A DNA stretch of 41,028 nt. Origin: Acidiferrobacteraceae bacterium. Lineage in GTDB: Bacteria; Pseudomonadota; Gammaproteobacteria; HyVt-429. The DNA lies in the NCBI GenBank assembly GCA_011052015.1, contig DRJZ01000011.1, positions 1 to 41,028 on the forward strand, written 5' to 3'. Positions 5,354 through 40,375 of this stretch are shown piece after piece (the stretch's first letter is position 1; the number at the start of each line of letters is the position of its first letter). Both the position numbers and the translations under genes were made by a program. Under the pieces are notes generated by a model, which worked only from the letters and a program-made list of their open reading frames with translations, searched no databases and had not been told where the DNA came from.

Positions 5354-6034
5354 TTAAAGGATCGCTGAAATCGCTGACAGAGGCACCGATTTCGATCCAG
5401 ACAGATTCAAGATGATTTCACCCTGACTTCGATCCATGCTGACGCTCTCAACCAACACCGCCAACTGGGCATCCACGCCAACCACATCACCTCCGATAAT
5501 GGCCTCGGCGGCGACCCGATAAATCCCCGCTGGCGCCGGCTTACCATCATTCGTGAGGCCATCCCATTTAAAATTCGCGGGTCCGGCGCCCTGGGGACCC
5601 ATCTCTAATTGACGCACCAGTTGGCCACTTTGATCGGTAATCTTGAGGGTGAGTGAAGTGCTTGCATCCGGCATGTTCACGACACCACTGAGGTTGCCAC
5701 CCACTTGCAATTGACCGTCAACTCCCGGAGCCAACACCAACCGGCCCACCAATGCAGATGCCTGCAATGCCTGATTGGATTGCAACGCCTCGGCAAGGCC
5801 GTTGATCGAATTCTGCAATTCCTGGATACCGCTTACGGTGCCGAACTGGGCCATCTGCCCCAGAAACTCACCGTTTTCCATGGGCTTGAGGGGGTCCTGA
5901 TTCTTGAGCTGAGTAATCATAAGCTCAAGAAAGGCCTCTTGGCCGAGCTTGTCAGATTTTTGCCGGGTCTGATCCTTAGGGATGGACAGCCCCAGTCTGT
6001 CGATATTGGAAATGATGTCGCTATTTGAAGTCAC
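5354..6034 (-). CDS. flgD: Flagellar hook capping/assembly protein FlgD
   Basis: LGQEAFLELMITQLKNQDPLKPMENGEFLGQMAQFGTVSGIQEL. Confidence 0.97.
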   Translation of the reverse strand: MTSNSDIISNIDRLGLSIPKDQTRQKSDKLGQEAFLELMITQLKNQDPLKPMENGEFLGQMAQFGTVSGIQELQNSINGLAEALQSNQALQASALVGRLVLAPGVDGQLQVGGNLSGVVNMPDASTSLTLKITDQSGQLVRQLEMGPQGAGPANFKWDGLTNDGKPAPAGIYRVAAEAIIGGDVVGVDAQLAVLVESVSMDRSQGEIILNLSGSKSVPLSAISAIL

Positions 6035-6925: not shown

Positions 6926-6941
6926 AGCAATAGCCGTGCCA
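6926..6941 (-). promoter_or_regulatory. Sigma-54-type promoter for flgB operon: TGGCAC-GGCTA-TTGCT
   Basis: Minus strand reads TGGCACGGCTATTGCT; GG-N10-GC spacing exact; about 40 nt upstream of the flgB ATG. Confidence 0.85.
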
Positions 6942-8076: not shown

Positions 8077-10149
8077 TTACAGCTTAAACCCTCCCACCAA
8101 AGCCGTCAGTTGCGTTGCCAGTCGCGCCAATTCCTCACTCGCCTTAGCAATATGCTGGGTACCGTCGCCGGTCTGGTGAGCAACTCTGTTGATATCCACC
8201 ACATTCTTATTAATCTCTTCGACCACGTGCTTTTGTTCATCTGCCGAGCTGGCAATCTGGGTATTCATTTCGTTGATAGTGCGCGCTGAACGGGTAATGG
8301 CCCCAAGAGATGTACCCGCCTTGCTCGCCTGCTGGACGGCCACAGCGGTTTTTTCCTGTCCCAATTTCATCACCTCCACCGCTTGGCCGGCCCGGCCTTG
8401 CAGGCGTTCCACCATCTGTTGGATTTCTTCGGTGGACTTTTGGGTATTCCCCGCCAAGGTGCGAACTTCATCGGCTACCACCGCAAAACCCCGCCCCTGT
8501 TCGCCGGCACGGGCCGCTTCAATGGCTGCGTTTAAGGCTAATAAGTTGGTCTGCTCGGCGATACCCCGAATCACATCGAGTACCTTTCCAATTTCCAAAG
8601 AGTCCTCGGCCAACTGCTTGATGACCTCCTCTGCTTTGTTAACCTCTACGGACAGGGCCTCTATACTCTCAATAACCTGGGTCACCACCTCGTAGCCTTC
8701 ATGGGCTTCGTTGTCAGAAGCCTCGGCTGAAGACGCTGCTTTCGCCGCATTTTGGGCCACCTCAGTCACTGCCGCCGCGAGCTGGGTGACTGCGGTAGCC
8801 ACCCGATCGGTATTTCCTTCCTGACGGTGCATCCCCTCTCGAGTCTGTTCGGTTACCGCCGACATCTCTTCGGCGGCTGCGGCAAGCTGAGTGGCAGACC
8901 CCGCCACTTGGCTCACGGTATGATGGATCTTACCTACGAACTGATTGAAACTGCCTCCCAGGCGGGCAATCTCGTCCTTGCCACTGTCCTCCAGGCGCCG
9001 GGTAAGATCCCCCTCACCCGTGGCGATATCGTCCATAGTCGCAACCGCCAGATCCAAAGGCTGGGTAATAAGTTTGCTGCTGACCCAGGCCAACAACAGG
9101 CCCAAGCCCAACCCGGCAATGAGCAAACCGGTCAACCATTTCATGGAGGCACGGACCTGGGCAATGAGCAAGCCACTCGATGTCTCGATATCCTTGCGCT
9201 TGGCCCCCACCAATCTATCCAACATACCATCGATATCGCCCACCAACTGGCCTACTTCGTTCTTGATCAAGTAGGCGTCCATGCGCCAGCGCTCACCGCC
9301 ATGCAATTCTTTGAGCTTGAGCAAATCGGCAAAATAGGCCTTTTGCAGCGCTGCGGCGTCACTCAAAGAGACTTCTTCTTCCAAGGTAAGCCGGTCACCA
9401 TAGGCGCCAATCTTTTTTATCAGGCGCTCGATTTCTTCTTTGTAGTCTTTTAGCACTTCATCCAGGACTTCCGGGGCGCGAAACCCCAGGTAACCACGCA
9501 CACCGAATAACACCTGGGCCCACTGGTAGCGTAACTCGGCCATATCCAACAACATTTTTTTGCGCCTCGGGCTGGCCTCCTCATCGGCCTCAGATAGCAT
9601 CATGGTACTCAACAAACCTCTGATCTCAGCAGCCCTGGGGGCCAGGGTCTGACGCGCAAAGGCCATCCCCGGCATATTGAGATTGATATCTTGCGCCAGC
9701 CCGATCATATGTGATTTATGGGTGGTGAAGGCCCGTACCTTTGCCTCTATTTGGCTGATCAGCTTACTGGTCTCCGAATCGTCCTGTAACTTGGCGCTTT
9801 TCTTTAGTGCGCTCACGCTCTGCTCTACACCGACCAAGCTATCTTCGTATTTTTTCTTATAACTGGGGTCCTTACTCAATAAATAAAATCCCATCGCCCC
9901 GGTGGCATCCCGCAACTGGCTACTCAGGATCATGGAATCGATTACAATCGGCTGGTTCTGCTGCACCACTACAGACACCGTAGACTGCAACTTATCGAGG
10001 TTGCTCAGCGCAATCAACGACACCAGCAACAAAAATACCAGCAGTATACCCATGCTCCCCCATACCCGATGTTTGACAGAATACCTCGACAAAAACCGGG
10101 ATATTAGGCGGCTGCCCTGAAATGAACGGTAAGTGTTTTGCTGTGACAT
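8077..10149 (-). CDS. Methyl-accepting chemotaxis protein with large all-helical periplasmic domain, HAMP and MCP signalling domain
   Basis: Two TM segments; HAMP-like [27 protein letters not shown]; hallmark [40 protein letters not shown]. Confidence 0.96.
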
Positions 10150-10456
10150 TGTTGCGCTATCTCTCTTATCAGTCAGTTACGACAACTTAAAAATAATTGC
10201 TCCGCCACCTTACCTGGCTCACTGGCGCAGGCCCACTGCGGGCTACAGCACCACCTGCCTTTTCACACAGCAATAACCAGGCCAAGTAGCTTTTAAGGAG
10301 TTTCCTGTAAAACGCTGGATGTCCATATTTTATAGGCACAAAATGCGTCGGCGCCTTGGCAGTTCAATATTAATCACAGCAAGCTGCAGGGGTACAACCC
10401 TCAAAGATCAAATCAGCATGAATTGATTCAAGAATGTTTTCAGACCTCTACTTTTG

Positions 10457-11398
10457 TTACGCGGCGTCCGCAGTATGTTGATCCCTGGCAACGTGGCCAA
10501 AGACAAACTCGATAAGGCCATCGGCATTAAACTTGGCCAAGAAGTGGTCCGCGCCCACCTGTTTCACCATGCCTTCATTAAATACACCACTCAAAGAACT
10601 ATGCAGTAAGACGTAGAGTCCCTTGAGCCGGGGATCATCCTTGACTTCCTTGGTAAGGGTATAGCCGTCCATTTCAGGCATCTCGATATCCGATATCATC
10701 ATGCTAATCTTATTGCTGATGGGTTCACCCCCTTCACACCAACCCTGCAGCATCTCCAGGGCTTCACGGCCATTAATGGCCGTTATGTAGTGCAGGCCCG
10801 CCTGATCCAGTGCACGGGTAATCTGTTTGCGCGCCACATTCGAGTCGTCCACCACAAATATGGGCTTTATATCGTCGTTTTTCTCAACTTTGTGCGTCAA
10901 CTCTTCGGAGACCTCTACCACCAATCCAGTGACCTCGGCATGGACCTTCTCCACGTCGATAACCTCCACCAACTCGCCATCCACTTCTGTCACTGCGGTA
11001 AGATAATTTTCATCTCCCAACCCCGGCGGGGGTTGCCGGATATCCTTCCATTCGTGATTAACAATACGATCCACACCACCTACCAAGAAACCCTGCACCG
11101 AGCGGTTGTACTCAGTGACGATAACAAAGCTGTCCTCAACATTTTCCGTGGGCTTACCCCCCAGGGCCATATTCAAATCAATGATACTGATGGTGTTACC
11201 CCGCAAATGGGCCACCCCCCGAACCACCGGCATGGAGTCTGGAAGCTTGGTCAACGGTGGGCAATGGATCACCTCTCGCACCTTAAAGACATTAATGCCA
11301 TAACGTTGCCGGCCGACAAGTTTGAACATCAGAAGCTCAAGGCGGTTACGCCCTGCAAGTCGCGTACGCAGATCGACCCTATCCAAGACTCCGGCCAT
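10457..11398 (-). CDS. cheV: Chemotaxis protein CheV (CheW domain + receiver)
   Basis: LLMFKLVGRQRYGINVFKVREVIHCPPLTKLPDSMPVVRGVAHLRG (CheW-like); FVVDDSN..MISDIEMPEMDGYTLTKEV (receiver). Confidence 0.95.
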   Translation of the reverse strand: MAGVLDRVDLRTRLAGRNRLELLMFKLVGRQRYGINVFKVREVIHCPPLTKLPDSMPVVRGVAHLRGNTISIIDLNMALGGKPTENVEDSFVIVTEYNRSVQGFLVGGVDRIVNHEWKDIRQPPPGLGDENYLTAVTEVDGELVEVIDVEKVHAEVTGLVVEVSEELTHKVEKNDDIKPIFVVDDSNVARKQITRALDQAGLHYITAINGREALEMLQGWCEGGEPISNKISMMISDIEMPEMDGYTLTKEVKDDPRLKGLYVLLHSSLSGVFNEGMVKQVGADHFLAKFNADGLIEFVFGHVARDQHTADAA

Positions 11399-32334: not shown

Positions 32335-33798
32335 TTATTTCTTTTTGCTTCCTATCATTTCAACGCCAAGGTCTTTGGCCGTTTTCATCATCCACAAGTT
32401 CATAAATCCAGCTGCTGCGTTACCATTTGCTGGCCCTCCCTTGCCATTACCGTTCATGGTGATGTCAGGCACCCACTTCTGCTTGCCCAGTTCCTTGGAT
32501 AATACCGTCATGACCTTAACATAAGCATCCAATTTCTGTTTCAAGGCGCCATCGGCCTTGTAGATGAGACGCCTCTGTTCACCCAATCCTTGCCCTTCAA
32601 GGATATACGCGGCTTTATTATGTTTGGCTACCTGGGCATTTAGTATGGCAACTTTTACATTTTTTTCAGCAGCGATAATTGCCTTAGTCTTTGCAAGTTT
32701 TGCGAGTTCAATCTTTTTGTTAGCTGCACCAAGATCCTGTTGTTTCTTGACTTTCGCTACCGCAAGTTTCCGCTCGGCATTAATGATGGCGACAGTCTTA
32801 TCTTCTTCAGCCGCGACTTCCGCTCTTTTCATTTTCACCATAGCTTCGTATTCAGCAATTTTAACTTTCTTTTTGCCAACTTCTTCTGCGGCCAGCCTTT
32901 CCTGTTTTGCTCTTTCTGCAGCTATCTTTGCAACGATAGTCTGCTGTAGCGCCTCTCTCTTGGTTTTAATGAGGTCCTCAGTCTCTGATTCATAGCGTAT
33001 ATTGGTAATCTGAAATTGCTTAAATTTGATGCCATAGCGTTCAAGGGGATTCTCGTTCCTGAGCTTGATGCCATCTTCCGTTTTCACCCTAACGACATTA
33101 TTTTCGAAAGTAACCTCCGCTGCCCCCATCCCATGCTCTGCCCTGTCAATCTCCTCGGTAACATAGGTACCCTTAGTCAGTTGACTTCTTGCCCATTCTG
33201 AAAAAATAGCCCGTTTAGTGGTATACGACTCACCTGAGTTCATCAACGCGGCCGTAAGTACCACTGACTCTTCAATGGTGGGTTTAATACCTATCTCGAT
33301 GAGATTCGTATAATTCCTGAACTTTTGATGAACAAAGCCCAACTTATCTTTATCTGTTGGCAGATCAAACAGCGTCATAACCGATATCCAACCCATTGCA
33401 CCATCGTTGAATCGTACTTCGATTTCGCCGGAAACTTCCGGGTTTTTATTTTTGTCTTTTCTCGGCCTGACAATAGGCTTTCCATTGGGACCTTTATTTT
33501 TGGCCTTTTGTGAAAACTTGACCGTTCCCGCATTTTGGTATTTTGTGATCGTGCCAAAACACTGGCAGAACAAACCCGGTTCGGAAATGATGGAAACTTC
33601 CCCGGTTAAAAGCGATTGCTTGACCGTAATGGTGCCGGCCTCATTTGTTTCCAGGAGGCCGGTCGCAGCACCCGCAACAAGAAGGGCTACGAGCAAACTG
33701 GCCAATATCGTCTTCCCCGGAAGACCTGCCTGCTTCAAAGTCTCCCCAAACTTGTTCATCTTGCTCTGTATTTCATCAGTTTCCATGGTTGTCTCCAC
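32335..33798 (-). CDS. SPFH/band-7-like membrane protein with long Ala/Lys/Glu-rich coiled coil
   Basis: N-terminal TM ILASLLVALLVAGAATGLL; coiled coil AKQERLAAEEVGKKKVKIAEYEAMVKMKRAEVAAEEDKTVAIINAERK typical of stomatin/flotillin-like proteins. Confidence 0.75.
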   Translation of the reverse strand: METTMETDEIQSKMNKFGETLKQAGLPGKTILASLLVALLVAGAATGLLETNEAGTITVKQSLLTGEVSIISEPGLFCQCFGTITKYQNAGTVKFSQKAKNKGPNGKPIVRPRKDKNKNPEVSGEIEVRFNDGAMGWISVMTLFDLPTDKDKLGFVHQKFRNYTNLIEIGIKPTIEESVVLTAALMNSGESYTTKRAIFSEWARSQLTKGTYVTEEIDRAEHGMGAAEVTFENNVVRVKTEDGIKLRNENPLERYGIKFKQFQITNIRYESETEDLIKTKREALQQTIVAKIAAERAKQERLAAEEVGKKKVKIAEYEAMVKMKRAEVAAEEDKTVAIINAERKLAVAKVKKQQDLGAANKKIELAKLAKTKAIIAAEKNVKVAILNAQVAKHNKAAYILEGQGLGEQRRLIYKADGALKQKLDAYVKVMTVLSKELGKQKWVPDITMNGNGKGGPANGNAAAGFMNLWMMKTAKDLGVEMIGSKKK

Positions 33799-33825: not shown

Positions 33826-34488
33826 TCAGTTATAAAGTTCCTGTAGCTTATTCTCGATTTCATTAACCAGGGCATCCTGCTTTTTGCTACCCATATGAGT
33901 CATTTTCAAGAAATACAGTGCCACCTGATACTGGTCGATCGCACCTTTCATATTTCCCTTCTCTTCTTCCTTGCTGGCCTTGGCGAGATATTCGTCATAT
34001 TGAAGCTGATTGATAAAATCATTGGCTTCCTCGATCTCATCCGTGAGTGACTTTTCATCAAGACCGAGCTTCAAACCTTCACTGAGGATGGCCTGCGCAG
34101 ACGTCGCATAGTTCACTTTGGCCATCGTGCTTGTAGTCTCACGGGCCTTGCGCATTGATTCCTGAAATCGTCCCTTGATACCAGAATGGGTCAGCGCTTG
34201 TTTTAACGACAACAATTGCGGGAGTTTTTCCGCAGAGTGTTTTCCCGGCAGTATCTCTTCCATTTGCTCAAGGTAGCCGATGGCACAATCGATATGTGCC
34301 AATCGTGATTTAAAATCCTCGACGCTATTGAATGATTTCATGCTTTCGTCAAAATCCCGCTTTATCGAGCTATAATCTGAGTGTTTGTCTTTCTTTATTG
34401 ACTGCGCCCGGAGTTGTTTATTCCGCTCACTGTGGCGATAAAGCCAAAGAAACAAGATCCAGGAAAAAAAGAATATTAACCAGCCCAC
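33826..34488 (-). CDS. Hypothetical N-terminally membrane-anchored helical protein
   Basis: MGWLIFFFSWILFLWLYRH TM anchor followed by charged helical region; clean ORF in cluster. Confidence 0.75.
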   Translation of the reverse strand: MGWLIFFFSWILFLWLYRHSERNKQLRAQSIKKDKHSDYSSIKRDFDESMKSFNSVEDFKSRLAHIDCAIGYLEQMEEILPGKHSAEKLPQLLSLKQALTHSGIKGRFQESMRKARETTSTMAKVNYATSAQAILSEGLKLGLDEKSLTDEIEEANDFINQLQYDEYLAKASKEEEKGNMKGAIDQYQVALYFLKMTHMGSKKQDALVNEIENKLQELYN

Positions 34489-34522: not shown

Positions 34523-35821
34523 TTAATAAAGGCTCTTTGGTCCGGAGCTACTGGGATACGCCTCCATACCATGCTCGCTGATATCGAGACCAATGTGCTC
34601 TTCCTCTTGGCTGACGCGCAGCCCACCCAAAAGCAGGCTGACAATATGCCAAACAAAATAACTGCCGATGCCCGCAAAAGCGCCAATCGCTGCGACCCCC
34701 ACGGCTTGAACAACAAGCAAAGAAAGTTCACCTGTATAAAAGAAGCCGTTCTCCAAACTAAACAACCCGACGGCCAATGTTCCCCAGATGCCGTTGACGA
34801 GATGTACCGGAACAGCACCAACTGGATCATCTATACAGCGCTTGTCGAGCAACATAATGGAGTAGACAACCAGTACCCCGGCGACAAGTCCAATGATCAC
34901 TGCTCCACTTGTGCTTACGACCGCACACCCGGCGGTAATAGCAACCAGACCGGCCAATGAACCATTGACGATCATGCTCAAATCAGGCTTGCCAACAAGC
35001 ACCTCAGCAGCGATCAGGGCACTGAGCACACCGGCGGCGGCGGCAAGCGTCGTATTTAGAGCAACCGTTGCGATAATGTCGTTGCCCGCTGTCATGGCAC
35101 TGCCGGCATTAAACCCGAACCATCCAAACCACAAGAGAAACATTCCCAGTGCCGCCATGGCCTGATTGTGGCCCGGTATAGGAGCCACCCTGCCATCTCG
35201 GGTGAACTTTTTTGCCCGTGCGCCCAGAATGATGGTGCCCGTCAGCGCGGCCCAACCACCGACGGAATGCACCACCGAGGAACCCGCAAAATCAGTAAAC
35301 CCCATTTCGCCTAGCCAACCGCCACCCCATACCCAGTGACCAACGATGGGGTAAATAATGGCGACAAGCACAATAGAAAAGGCAATAAATGAGAAAAACT
35401 TTATTCTTTCCGAAACCGCCCCCGATACAATATGAGCCGAGGCAGCCACAAACATGAGTTGAAATAAAACCTTTGCATAAAGGGGTAAGGCCGCCCAACC
35501 AAGAGCACTGTAATCACCGTAATAATATTCACCAATAGCCGGACTGTTATCTTCTCCCGAAAGCATCCAACCCGTTGTCCCCATCAGGGAGTTTCCATCG
35601 CCAAACATCAAGCCAAAACCGACTAGCCAGAAACTCAAGCTTGCAATAGAAAATATGACGATATTCTTTGCAAAGATATTGACGGTATTCTTCGCCCGGC
35701 AAAGTCCCGCCTCAAGCATCCCGAATCCTGCATTCATCATAAAAACCAGGACTGCTGCAAAAATGACCCATACGGTATCCAGCGATATTGCAAGAACCGC
35801 TATATTCTCAGTGGAACTCAT
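34523..35821 (-). CDS. amt: Ammonium transporter (Amt/MEP/Rh family)
   Basis: VFMMNAGFGMLEAGLCRAKNTVNIFAKN; DFAGSSVVHSVGGWAALTGTIILGAR; DPVGAVPVHLVNGIWGTLAVGLF (both pore-His regions present). Confidence 0.95.
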   Translation of the reverse strand: MSSTENIAVLAISLDTVWVIFAAVLVFMMNAGFGMLEAGLCRAKNTVNIFAKNIVIFSIASLSFWLVGFGLMFGDGNSLMGTTGWMLSGEDNSPAIGEYYYGDYSALGWAALPLYAKVLFQLMFVAASAHIVSGAVSERIKFFSFIAFSIVLVAIIYPIVGHWVWGGGWLGEMGFTDFAGSSVVHSVGGWAALTGTIILGARAKKFTRDGRVAPIPGHNQAMAALGMFLLWFGWFGFNAGSAMTAGNDIIATVALNTTLAAAAGVLSALIAAEVLVGKPDLSMIVNGSLAGLVAITAGCAVVSTSGAVIIGLVAGVLVVYSIMLLDKRCIDDPVGAVPVHLVNGIWGTLAVGLFSLENGFFYTGELSLLVVQAVGVAAIGAFAGIGSYFVWHIVSLLLGGLRVSQEEEHIGLDISEHGMEAYPSSSGPKSLY

Positions 35822-36399
35822 TGTCGATAGCCTCTTGTCTGATTTTGTCCATAACGATGGTTAGATTTTTTTGTCGGCATCTCTGCATCGGTCTTTACCG
35901 AGGTGTCAATTGTCGAAAAACTTTTCTTGTGACATTGCTGGCAAGTACTGATGGCGTCTGTGGTGAGGAACTTGATTATCCGGTTTCCCGGTGCATGAGC
36001 TTTGTGACATGCAATGCATGAGACCTTATCCATCGGCCAGTGCTTTTCTTCTGCGTGAAATACCGCATCCGGATTACCCTGTGCTGTCTTGCCTCGAGTG
36101 TGACAGCCAAGGCAGACCTTCCCGGATGGGAGCTTTCCTATCGTTTGACGTGACTCATGACAACCCTGACAGCCAGAATCGGGCGCTCTTCTTTTAAACA
36201 CTTGACCATGGAATCCGGCAAGCGTTTTTACTTCATTTAAAGTTGCAGAAAAGTCCTCTGTAAATGCACTATGTAAATGACATTTAATGCAGGTTTCATC
36301 GCTGGCCGGAGCCGGTGAGAGCACCAGCGAATTGATTAACACAGCCATCAAAACTGGCATTAAAGCCATTGCCAAAGAAGGCAAGCGATTAGTCCTCAT
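35818..36399 (-). CDS. Periplasmic pentaheme c-type cytochrome
   Basis: Five CxxCH: CIKCH, CQGCH, CLGCH, CIACH, CQQCH; export signal from MRTNRLPSLAMALMPVLM. Confidence 0.9.
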   Translation of the reverse strand: MRTNRLPSLAMALMPVLMAVLINSLVLSPAPASDETCIKCHLHSAFTEDFSATLNEVKTLAGFHGQVFKRRAPDSGCQGCHESRQTIGKLPSGKVCLGCHTRGKTAQGNPDAVFHAEEKHWPMDKVSCIACHKAHAPGNRIIKFLTTDAISTCQQCHKKSFSTIDTSVKTDAEMPTKKSNHRYGQNQTRGYRQ

Positions 36400-38041
36400 C
36401 GGCTTTGTCCTCTCTCGACTCAATCTCGACCAGTTCAAGCGGATGATCATGTTCCATGACCTTGTAACTCGTTTTTCCGGTCAACCATGAAGAGTCCATC
36501 GGAGAAACATCGGGATTCAGGAACACGTGGTAGAAATGCTGCACAAAGACAACCAACACTGCCAGTATCGCTTCCCAGCCGTGAATCAGCTGTGAATAAA
36601 AAACAACTTCAACCGGAATTTGGATTGCAATCGGTGAAAAATTCCACATCACAAGCCCCGTTATTATGACGATAAAACCACCGACCACTGTGGCCCAGTA
36701 TTCCACTTTCTGATACCAGGTATAGCGGTACATCAACGGCATGTGATCTGCCCTGCCAAACAAATAGCTGGTGTGTAAAAAGGCATCAATCAAATCCTTC
36801 TTGTTCAGGAAAATCTTGCCAGGCGGCTTTAGTTTAAGCAGGTAAGGCAGCAAATGAATCACTGCCATCGACATAAATACAATAGCCGCAATACGGTGCA
36901 TGACAGAGCGCTGCCCTTCACCACCCAACATCCACACCACAGCCTGCGAAAGCACTGATTCCGGGAATTTAAGCGAGAGCCCTGTCGCTGCCAGGACAAT
37001 AAAGGAAAGGGCCCAGAAAAAATGCTGCAAGCGCCAGGAAACAGAAAATCGTTTAACACTCTTCTTGGTGTCGTTATCTGTTTTGCAAACCCCATCTTTG
37101 GTCTTTGTGATGTAATCCCGAGTCGAAAGCAGCGTGAAAAACCCAACAATGCCAATAACCATTGCCAGATAGGTCGAGTTAATCATAAAGGCAATTGATA
37201 AAGGCCCAGCAGTGACTGGGTCCCGAAAATGGGTGACCTTTCGCGTTGAATCCTGGCTGAGATTTTGTATCAACATAACATCAGCACCCGTGCCTGCATG
37301 AATGGCCTTGCCATGGCAACCGGCACACATACCGCCGATATTACCCGTATGAATAAACGAGGCGGGATCATCCGTGGGTAATTCATGACCTCGATGACAG
37401 TAGATGCATGTCGGCGCCAAGGTGTTTCCCAAATGAAATTGCTTACCATGAAACGTCTGCATATAGGAACTACGTGCATCCTTATGACATCTTCCACACG
37501 TTTTTACATCATTACCACGGTAGAGCCTCGCCGTTTTACTGGCAACTAATGGCGCTAAATGGGAATCGTGACAATCGATACAACTCACGCCTGGAGTCTT
37601 GCCATTGCTGTCCGCCAGCCCATGAACACTGGCCTTAAACTCTGCCAACCTTTCCTGGTGGCAACCCCCACAAACATCAATAAAATAGGCTTTGTTCTCT
37701 TTACTACCGGGTTTTCCCACCATGGCAGCGTGGGCATCTTCCTGATTTTGCGCAGTGACTGCTGCGTAAAAGGCCTGACCTTTCATGTCTTTCTTCAAAT
37801 GACAGTCAATACAAGTCACGCCCTCTGCTGCATGGCGGCTCTTTAACCAGGACTTAATGGACTCATATCTTTTGGGTCGCCTGGCCTCTTCATGGCACTG
37901 TTTACACTCTTCAGCATTCTCTTTGATACGATGTGCAGTATTTTTTTTGATGCTTACACCAGCGCCGTAATCTGATTCCTGCGCTACGGCAACCGATAGC
38001 CATAGAAGACTGGCAAGTATTATGAATACGCCCCTGAGCAT
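36389..38041 (-). CDS. Heptaheme cytochrome c fused to a C-terminal cytochrome-b-like membrane domain
   Basis: Seven CxxCH (CKQCH, CIDCH, CGGCH, CIDCH, CGRCH, CIYCH, CAGCH) then several TM segments with His, e.g. VSWRLQHFFWALSFIVLAATGLSLKFP, RSVMHRIAAIVFMSMAVIHLLPYLL. Confidence 0.9.
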   Translation of the reverse strand: MLRGVFIILASLLWLSVAVAQESDYGAGVSIKKNTAHRIKENAEECKQCHEEARRPKRYESIKSWLKSRHAAEGVTCIDCHLKKDMKGQAFYAAVTAQNQEDAHAAMVGKPGSKENKAYFIDVCGGCHQERLAEFKASVHGLADSNGKTPGVSCIDCHDSHLAPLVASKTARLYRGNDVKTCGRCHKDARSSYMQTFHGKQFHLGNTLAPTCIYCHRGHELPTDDPASFIHTGNIGGMCAGCHGKAIHAGTGADVMLIQNLSQDSTRKVTHFRDPVTAGPLSIAFMINSTYLAMVIGIVGFFTLLSTRDYITKTKDGVCKTDNDTKKSVKRFSVSWRLQHFFWALSFIVLAATGLSLKFPESVLSQAVVWMLGGEGQRSVMHRIAAIVFMSMAVIHLLPYLLKLKPPGKIFLNKKDLIDAFLHTSYLFGRADHMPLMYRYTWYQKVEYWATVVGGFIVIITGLVMWNFSPIAIQIPVEVVFYSQLIHGWEAILAVLVVFVQHFYHVFLNPDVSPMDSSWLTGKTSYKVMEHDHPLELVEIESREDKADED

Positions 38042-38697
38042 TATCGACGTTGTCCTTCTGCCGGGGGTATTTTGCTAAACGATGTGTCAGGACATGCCCA
38101 GTGCCCCTCATTTGCCACAACGGATTCAGCAAAACGATGATCGGTTTGAGCTTTATTCTTCGTGCCAACCAAACCACCTAAACTCGCGAAAAGGCCTTGA
38201 AAAAATCCAGGCTTAGCCCTTTCTTTCACTGAGCGTATGGTTTTATAGATGCTATGACAGGTCGAGCATAATGCCTCTCTGTTGACAAGCCTCAGATCCT
38301 TGACGCTGTGATAACCGTGGATGTCACCGGGATCGTAAACTGCCTTACCATTTTCAACAGACTCCACACTGTGACAAACCACACACGTGACGCCATCACG
38401 ATACGTTTTTCCTTTCACCACGTCACTTGTTGCGGCGAAAACATCACCGCTGATCACCTCCCCAGGCGCATGGCATTTGAAGCAATAGGCACCACTATTG
38501 GTATTTTCTTTTTCCAGATAGCCTTCAAGGCAACCACGGAAGTCATTACTGTTAATCGAATTGGCATGAGCAGAATACTGCCATGCATCGAAACTTGACA
38601 CATGACAACTCCCGCAACTTTCAGCACGGGGCAACCCCTTTGCCTGTACCGCCTGACTTGGGGCAAGTAGGAATAGACAAATCACTAACGGCCTCAT
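38041..38697 (-). CDS. Tetraheme c-type cytochrome (cytochrome c554-like)
   Basis: Four CxxCH: CGSCH, CFKCH, CVVCH, CSTCH; signal peptide MRPLVICLFLLAPSQAVQA; start chosen at 38697. Confidence 0.88.
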   Translation of the reverse strand: MRPLVICLFLLAPSQAVQAKGLPRAESCGSCHVSSFDAWQYSAHANSINSNDFRGCLEGYLEKENTNSGAYCFKCHAPGEVISGDVFAATSDVVKGKTYRDGVTCVVCHSVESVENGKAVYDPGDIHGYHSVKDLRLVNREALCSTCHSIYKTIRSVKERAKPGFFQGLFASLGGLVGTKNKAQTDHRFAESVVANEGHWACPDTSFSKIPPAEGQRR

Positions 38698-38704
38698 TCC
38701 TAAC

Positions 38705-40045
38705 TTACTCGTCGAAATCGACCTTCTCTGCCTCAATATCAAGCGCTTTTTCCAGCTTATCCAAACGCCGCAACTGGTTTGCCTCGTTCTTTATTCTGGA
38801 CAGCTTCATTTTCATCGGTGCATTACCGTACCAGTGCGTCCAGTCGGGACTGAAATGGTAGGCGCCTTTCCAGGCATGCACGAGATCGAATTTATACATC
38901 TCGAAAAACAAGGCCTCAACGCCCGATGTTTGCTCATAGAGCTGGTGTCCCGTAAGCATCAGTTTCTTCCCCACGAAAGGATTCTCTGGCCTGTCTTCCG
39001 GCATGGGGTTCAACAAACCATCATTGTAAAGCCCCTTGATTTCCTTGATGGCCTCGCCCGCTACCGCATCACTGGCGACTTTAATTCCATCGGCAACAGA
39101 CAACTTATGTTCGGCAAAACGTTTGGAATGGCAGTCCATACAAATGGTCACCATCTTGGCCCGTTCCCGTTTGTAAGTTCCTTCGGTAATCTCGTTCATC
39201 AAGATACCGTTAGGGCTTTTGCTGTATCCCGCACCCGTATCCTTATTACCGACAAACTTGCCCTGTGAGGCACCACCCAAGGTCAGGCCTTGGCTCACAT
39301 CATGGTTACCCGCCTTCATGTGGCAGGTGACACAGGTCGGCGCCCTGCCGCCCTCTTCAACACCCTTGCCCTCAATGCCGTATATGACACCGTGCTTCGA
39401 TGATTCGAAATAATCCAGTTGCGCGTGGTCCGGTCCCATATGGCAGGTACCACAGGCGCTGGGTTCAAGCGCTTCCTTGGCATTAAATTTGTGCCGGGAA
39501 TGACAAGAATCGCATTTGTCTTCCACGCTGTGACAACCACCACAACTGCCTTCCTTCATTTCTTCGTATTGGGCAAGGAAACGGCCGGCGCCACCTCCCT
39601 TACCACCGGATGCCACCTTGACGCTCCAGGCAATGGAATGTTTGCCTGCCCGGTGTTGCATGGTTTCCGAAGCATGACAGGTGCCGCAGGTATCGGGCGT
39701 GGGCATAATGAGGTTGCTGTGGTCGTTGTGACAGCTTTCACAGCCGACACCCTTCTCATAATGCTTGCTGTCCTCCCAATCCTTGACTGCGACAGGCGTC
39801 AATACCTTATGGCATTTCACACAATCTTTGCCGGCCTCCTTGACGACGGGTGGCGTATATTTTTTAGGGTTGCTGTAACCATCTTTTACCTCTTTCCATT
39901 TTTCCGTAATAGCCACATTTCTCTCGGGATAGTGACCGATGGGTTTAGGCACATCGTCCCCTGCAACTACCGCCTGTAGAAAAATGCCGCCAAAAACGGC
40001 AAACAAACCTATGGAGACAAAGACCCGTACCGCGATATTACTCAT
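38705..40045 (-). CDS. Octaheme c-type cytochrome, hydroxylamine oxidoreductase (HAO)-family
   Basis: Eight CxxCH (CVKCH, CESCH, CGTCH, CGGCH, CDSCH, CGTCH, CVTCH, CMDCH); HAO-family-like CDSCHSRHKFNAKEALEPSACGTCHMGPDHAQLDYFESSKHG. Confidence 0.9.
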   Translation of the reverse strand: MSNIAVRVFVSIGLFAVFGGIFLQAVVAGDDVPKPIGHYPERNVAITEKWKEVKDGYSNPKKYTPPVVKEAGKDCVKCHKVLTPVAVKDWEDSKHYEKGVGCESCHNDHSNLIMPTPDTCGTCHASETMQHRAGKHSIAWSVKVASGGKGGGAGRFLAQYEEMKEGSCGGCHSVEDKCDSCHSRHKFNAKEALEPSACGTCHMGPDHAQLDYFESSKHGVIYGIEGKGVEEGGRAPTCVTCHMKAGNHDVSQGLTLGGASQGKFVGNKDTGAGYSKSPNGILMNEITEGTYKRERAKMVTICMDCHSKRFAEHKLSVADGIKVASDAVAGEAIKEIKGLYNDGLLNPMPEDRPENPFVGKKLMLTGHQLYEQTSGVEALFFEMYKFDLVHAWKGAYHFSPDWTHWYGNAPMKMKLSRIKNEANQLRRLDKLEKALDIEAEKVDFDE

Positions 40046-40181: not shown

Positions 40182-40375
40182 CAAGTGCATGGTTTATGCC
40201 AAAAATAAAAAACCATACAAATCAATGATGTACATAATCTACCTTTACTTGATATGCACCATAAAGATGCAATGGCACAGAACTGTGCGGAAAATTGAGC
40301 CAGCCTGGTGCACAACAAACCTGCCCCTGGCGAATTGCTAATCCATGCCGCGACGGGGTTTTGACCCCCCAGGCA

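Follow-up and report, generated by a model that had tools for sequence, protein, structure and literature searches.

Introduction

Absence of the tyrosine that cross-links the catalytic heme in octaheme cytochromes of the HAO family has been described as favouring reduction (PMC8940962). The tyrosine-less octaheme HAOr of anammox bacteria is reported as a nitrite reductase whose product is NO (PMC12485887). In Nautilia, a tyrosine-less HaoA and a quinol-linked cytochrome are proposed to reduce nitrite (i.e. reverse-HURM ammonification) and AmtB-type channels are proposed to carry hydroxylamine; amtB transcripts were higher on nitrate, not significantly at the 0.05 level (PMC3701875). Hao-based ammonification without NrfA has also been proposed for other thermophiles (PMC5276818, PMC6896113). 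CbcL, another cytochrome bc-type quinol module, supplies periplasmic cytochromes (PMC12307469). The Beggiatoaceae orange protein, a gammaproteobacterial octaheme, has been shown to reduce nitrite and to oxidize hydroxylamine and hydrazine (PMC6449678); sequence alone cannot give the direction of such an enzyme.

Here we analyse a contig stretch of 41,028 nucleotides (hereafter the window) from an Acidiferrobacteraceae bacterium. It carries a seven-gene operon that we read, with a probability of roughly 0.58, as encoding a putative quinol-fed, ammonium-forming nitrite (or hydroxylamine) reductase, which would be induced by nitrogen starvation and whose ammonium would be taken up by an Amt channel.

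Identity and active site of the octaheme

The octaheme cytochrome c gene (38705–40045, reverse strand) is an intact reading frame of 446 aa with a predicted signal peptide; its N-terminus resembles a Sec signal (..FLQAVVA/GDD). Eight CxxCH motifs lie at residues 75, 102, 120, 168, 178, 198, 238 and 302, and shuffled versions of the protein contain 0.02 on average and 2 at most. The Pfam profile PF13447 matches at 113 bits (cut-off 21.9), the PDB matches are HAO/HDH octahemes (6t5e, 4e-47; 4n4j, 8e-47; 6h5l, 1e-39; 4fas, 6e-34; further 6m0p, 1fgj and 6hif), and all eight hemes align with those of Nitrosomonas HAO (NeHAO) in the same order. These results bear out the original prediction, which had claimed eight CxxCH motifs, a soluble export signal and membership of the HAO family. 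It had also named another octaheme family (e.g. OTR or ONR) as the competing identity. The motif scan of the 446 aa found no CxxCK, and no ONR, OTR or NrfA chain is among the PDB matches at E ≤ 0.01, so that an ONR, OTR or NrfA identity is ruled out. An AlphaFold2 monomer model built from a five-sequence input has a pLDDT of 40.

The C-terminal block AYHFSPDWTHWYGNAPMKMKL had been predicted to lie near the cross-link site, and alignment with Nitrosomonas HAO and anammox octahemes places the equivalent of the cross-linking tyrosine within it. In a phmmer alignment with 4fas that is gap-free at this site (..NPGGWTYTEGWGPM.. in NeHAO versus ..SP-DWTHWYGNAPM.. in the octaheme), the tyrosine of the NeHAO WTY motif, which is residue 467 when counted along the 4fas chain numbering and is the known cross-link residue, faces His404 (codon 38834–38836, reverse strand). 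The same column was recovered in a MAFFT alignment with relatives: it holds tyrosine in four clustered Tyr-bearing HAO sequences (FTYTEGW, WTYTTGW, WSYSDGW and WTYTEGW), tryptophan in HAOr (6h5l) and histidine in the octaheme's own subfamily, where His404 is invariant in all five aligned members. Relatives that keep the tyrosine and cluster with NeHAO are L024, L025 and L027. The active-site pair Asp267–His268 of NeHAO is retained as Asp206–His207 (codons 39425–39430, reverse strand). Tyr406, two residues beyond His404, was considered as a stand-in for the cross-link and rejected; it is Phe in L043 and therefore not a conserved substitute. The remaining counter-case named by the original prediction, a Tyr-bearing HAO with an amo operon, fails on both parts: the residue is His404, and AMO was not found in the genome's own assembly.

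In the family tree, the query subfamily (the window, L002/G086, L041, L042, L043, L089 and L044) is a single clade with support of 99/97, and Tyr-bearing HAO form a separate clade (100/100) in which the octaheme is not grouped. KuHAO and HAOr sit on long branches of uncertain placement, and HAOr is not grouped with the query. Compact octahemes from the phylum of G750 and from some gammaproteobacteria adjoin the query subfamily. One compact relative, L092 (G1097), has a tyrosine at the cross-link column (DYAYWYGWA), yet falls outside the oxidative HAO clade.

Octahemes of other gammaproteobacteria that are linked to NosR-like genes form another separate clade, with GPPH instead of the catalytic Asp–His motif. 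This clade is common (L036, i.e. G086:C15, L007, L011, L012, L020 and others); its members have an N-terminal anchor and adjoin a pentaheme gene and a NosR-like membrane protein of ∼780 aa. Genome G086 holds both this type and the window type. In L116 (G1022), the N-terminus of an octaheme ORF (9358–10656), VELYKRGYTKAYTIEGGWNGWVKANFP, looks like the last part of a rhodanese domain, so that the ORF may be a rhodanese–octaheme fusion.

Gene organization and conservation

The octaheme is the first of seven genes that lie almost gapless on the reverse strand. It is followed by a tetraheme cytochrome c with a Cytochrome_C554 Pfam match (38041–38697, 218 aa from the likely ATG), a fusion of a heptaheme cytochrome c with a cytochrome b561 (36389–38041, 550 aa), a pentaheme cytochrome c (35818–36399, 193 aa from the likely ATG), an Amt-type ammonium channel (34523–35821, 432 aa) that has both pore-His motifs and matches solved Amt proteins, a 220-aa protein with an N-terminal membrane anchor and a sub-cut-off MIT match (33826–34488), and finally an SPFH/Band_7 membrane protein (32335–33798, 487 aa). 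The fusion is CbcL-like in architecture. Its C-terminal b domain resembles the FdnI subunit of formate dehydrogenase N (1kqf_C, E = 2e-7), and four of its histidines, conserved in all copies, are in register with the heme-ligating histidines of FdnI. A quinol cytochrome of the NapC/cM552 type was not found in the operon, the NapC-family match of the fusion being a short CxxCH stretch only. Scans of the operon for sigma-70 promoters and terminators gave results at or near chance level.

The full set of seven genes, in unchanged order, is found in L031 (G086), which belongs to another gammaproteobacterial family and whose octaheme is 89% identical, and in L043, from a MAG named Deltaproteobacteria, whose octaheme is 69% identical. 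The order is kept up to the contig end in L041 (five genes) and L114 (two genes). The L044 octaheme (58%) is present without the module. An Amt gene belongs to the operon in the window, L031, L041 and L043. The 220-aa anchored protein and the SPFH/Band_7 protein accompany the multiheme genes in all complete copies. In L031, a divergent COX1-family protein (312–1670; 41 bits) lies upstream of the octaheme operon with a sigma-32-like factor between them, and a similar gene lies near the nir cluster of G002.

The cytochrome neighbours bear on the possibility that the octaheme is an oxidative enzyme, i.e. a hydroxylamine (or hydrazine/NO) dehydrogenase whose electrons would flow inward to quinone by way of the cytochrome b module and serve detoxification or energy supply. 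FdnI takes electrons from the periplasm and delivers them to quinone; because it reduces quinone, the FdnI-like b domain counts against a reductive reading. The c554-like tetraheme beside the octaheme recalls the hao-cycA-cycB arrangement of ammonia oxidisers, membership of the HAO family and the Asp–His pair also fit oxidation, and another gammaproteobacterial octaheme is known to be capable of oxidation in vitro (PMC6449678). We nevertheless regard oxidation as quite unlikely: the cross-link tyrosine is absent, no AMO was found in any carrier genome searched, and an Amt gene and predicted NtrC-type control are hard to reconcile with energy-yielding oxidation.

A respiratory role outside nitrogen metabolism (e.g. 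with sulfite, tetrathionate or metals) would be in keeping with the resemblance of the heptaheme/b fusion to CbcL of metal reducers, and octahemes can be promiscuous, as in the OTR-type enzyme of Beggiatoaceae that reduces both nitrite and tetrathionate (PMC6449678). The recurrent Amt gene and the NtrC box, however, point to nitrogen, and the octaheme is without the CxxCK heme of the ONR/NrfA kind. We consider this role highly improbable.

Nitrogen genes in the genome and its relatives

The window belongs to a MAG that is 94% complete, and gene absences in it are soft for this reason. The octaheme is single-copy in this MAG and absent from the three other genomes of its order. AMO (PF02461) has no match in the MAG or in any of the carrier genomes searched, against three in the control genome G324, and the octaheme is therefore not an ordinary nitrifier HAO. 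The same 94%-complete MAG yields no match for NrfA, no D1-profile match of NirS strength and nothing over the cut-off for NirK; NorB was not found, the sole COX1-family gene being oxidase-sized. Weak NirK- and D1-profile matches on contig C121 (51.7 and 42.3 bits) were rejected as far below true NirK and NirS scores. By contrast, two NarG proteins are present (1956 and 1458 bits against TIGR01580), each in a narGHJI set. The second set lies at 5831–16001 of L111 (G000:C23), preceded by a gene for a cytochrome with two CxxCH motifs; two multi-spanning membrane/transporter ORFs follow it in the usual place of NarK.

Among related genomes, G002, of the same genus, carries NirS together with its neighbours and no octaheme, while the carriers G748, G749 and G750 have both. 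Replacement of NirS by the octaheme is therefore not the rule, and the octaheme is not always the sole nitrite reductase. G086 additionally has an assimilatory nitrate/nitrite cluster.

In one alternative, the octaheme would replace NirS as an NO-forming enzyme, reducing nitrite to NO by one electron like HAOr (kustc0458). In its favour, NirS and the octaheme are found in separate species within the genus. HAOr (6h5l) is likewise tyrosine-less, it matches the octaheme at 1e-39, the two have a common C-terminal block (..WGQAPMMMEMTRI versus ..YGNAPMKMKLSRI), and the product of HAOr is NO (PMC12485887). We judge this unlikely, as no NorB that would remove NO was found in the MAG (its single COX1-family gene is oxidase-sized), the Amt linkage and the NtrC-type promoter suit ammonium better than NO as a product, HAOr is a long branch apart from the query, and its reported rate is low.

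Tyrosine-less octahemes such as epsilon-Hao are also known to reduce hydroxylamine. This supports a further alternative, in which the substrate would be hydroxylamine or NO instead of nitrite and ammonium would be formed for detoxification or scavenging; the proposal that Amt conducts hydroxylamine in Nautilia (PMC3701875) is in line with it. Set against this, the two Nar systems of the genome make nitrite, a larger local substrate source, which leaves this alternative very unlikely in our view.

Upstream region

The operon is preceded by a predicted nitrogen-starvation (NtrC/sigma-54) promoter. It consists of a predicted sigma-54 −24/−12 element, TGGCATAAACCATGCA (GG-N10-GC; 40186–40201, reverse strand), and a predicted NtrC box, TGCATCTTTATGGTGCA (40255–40271, reverse strand), 70 bp (start to start) upstream of it; the published NtrC consensus is TGCACCAnnnTGGTGCA (PMC8743547; PMC4987338). 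The box is the only match in the window with at most one mismatch (0.12 expected; at least one match in 11 of 100 shuffles), and none of 300 shuffles of the octaheme upstream region scores as well. Taken by itself, the sigma-54 element does not reach significance, 105 of 300 such shuffles being as good.

The pair recurs at a spacing of 70–71 bp in four of the five gammaproteobacterial copies (the window, L041, L042 and L045), with a perfect NtrC box in L045 (TGCACCCTCATGGTGCA), and is absent from 670,967 bases of other loci. As L042 and L045 are closely related, the four copies do not amount to four independent observations. In L031, the sigma-54 element lies at the same offset and the NtrC box is degenerate; the pair is missing in both deltaproteobacterial copies (L043 and L114). 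No match to the FNR-type patterns tried was found upstream of the octaheme. The only other exact sigma-54 element in the window, TGGCACGGCTATTGCT (6926–6941), lies directly upstream of a flgB-like gene; sigma-54 promoters are usual ahead of flagellar genes.

Proposed function

The direction of the octaheme, which the original prediction had left undecided, leans reductive because the tyrosine is missing, the operon includes Amt, the genomic context is one of nitrate reduction and an NtrC/sigma-54 promoter is predicted. Much of this functional evidence comes from the operon and its promoter, which the original prediction had not described. Ammonium is the best-fitting product, given the Amt gene in the operon, the nitrite made by Nar, the absence of a detected NorB and the NtrC-type promoter. 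Direction, substrate, product, electron path and regulation are all what we infer from these comparisons.

Under the preferred reading of a quinol-fed, ammonium-forming reductase, the octaheme would be a periplasmic, tyrosine-less HAO-family member working as a reductase. We suggest that (i) the heptaheme–cytochrome b fusion may draw electrons from the quinol pool; (ii) the tetraheme and pentaheme cytochromes may relay them to the octaheme; (iii) heme 4 of the octaheme, without a tyrosine cross-link and with Asp206–His207 kept, would reduce nitrite mainly to ammonium and possibly in part to hydroxylamine; and (iv) the Amt channel would import the product. In gammaproteobacteria that carry the operon, sigma-54 and NtrC would switch it on when ammonium is scarce, so that it would serve nitrogen supply at least in part, and not respiration alone.

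More tentatively, and with greater doubt than confidence, the seven-gene block of these distantly related proteobacterial lineages could represent a self-contained, nitrogen-starvation-controlled, quinol-driven periplasmic system that makes ammonium from nitrite with a His-for-Tyr octaheme and a dedicated Amt. Such a system would be assimilatory and distinct from both the cytoplasmic NirB/NirA-type and the respiratory NrfA systems.

Comparison with known systems

Judged by its description, the reverse-HURM system of Nautilia profundicola (epsilon-Hao) resembles the window operon in having a tyrosine-less periplasmic octaheme of the HAO family, a quinol-linked donor and a nitrate-reducing host, and there, too, the reduced product is proposed to enter through Amt (PMC3701875). 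In Nautilia, a NapC/cM552-type tetraheme serves as the donor and the amtB genes have unlinked locus tags; in the window, the heptaheme/cytochrome b fusion takes the place of that donor, and a single operon with an NtrC/sigma-54-type promoter also holds two extra cytochromes, Amt and SPFH. Reverse-HURM work has raised the questions of whether tyrosine-less HAO proteins act as reductases, whether the product is hydroxylamine or ammonium, and whether Amt carries it. Since a single transcription unit behind a predicted NtrC promoter combines the enzyme, the quinone module and Amt, all three questions become testable together.

The anammox HAOr (kustc0458/kustc0457, 6h5l) is also tyrosine-less, keeps the Asp–His pair, has a similar C-terminal block and is reported to reduce nitrite. 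Unlike the octaheme, it forms NO, has kustc0457 as a partner, carries Trp instead of His at the tyrosine position and falls outside the query's clade. The forward HURM of Nitrosomonas (HAO, c554 and cM552) has in common with the window the eight aligned hemes, the Asp267–His268 pair and a C554-type tetraheme neighbour; it differs in that Tyr467 is replaced by His in the octaheme, the window's genome has no AMO match and the quinone module is another one.

CbcL is an inner-membrane protein in which a multiheme cytochrome c is joined to a cytochrome b of the FdnI/HydC kind, and the likeness of the window fusion, with several c hemes fused to such a cytochrome b, to the CbcL-type modules of Geobacter is one of architecture only. 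The Geobacter module serves Fe(III) or electrode respiration (PMC12307469), while the window fusion is tied to an HAO-family octaheme.

No account of this seven-gene block, and none of an HAO-family gene under NtrC-type control, was found in the open-licence PMC papers searched. For metagenomes, tyrosine-less octaheme genes should not be annotated as hao of nitrification. In brief, tyrosine-less HAO relatives are already known, and the seven-gene operon is a variant of the tyrosine-less HAO/reverse-HURM kind.
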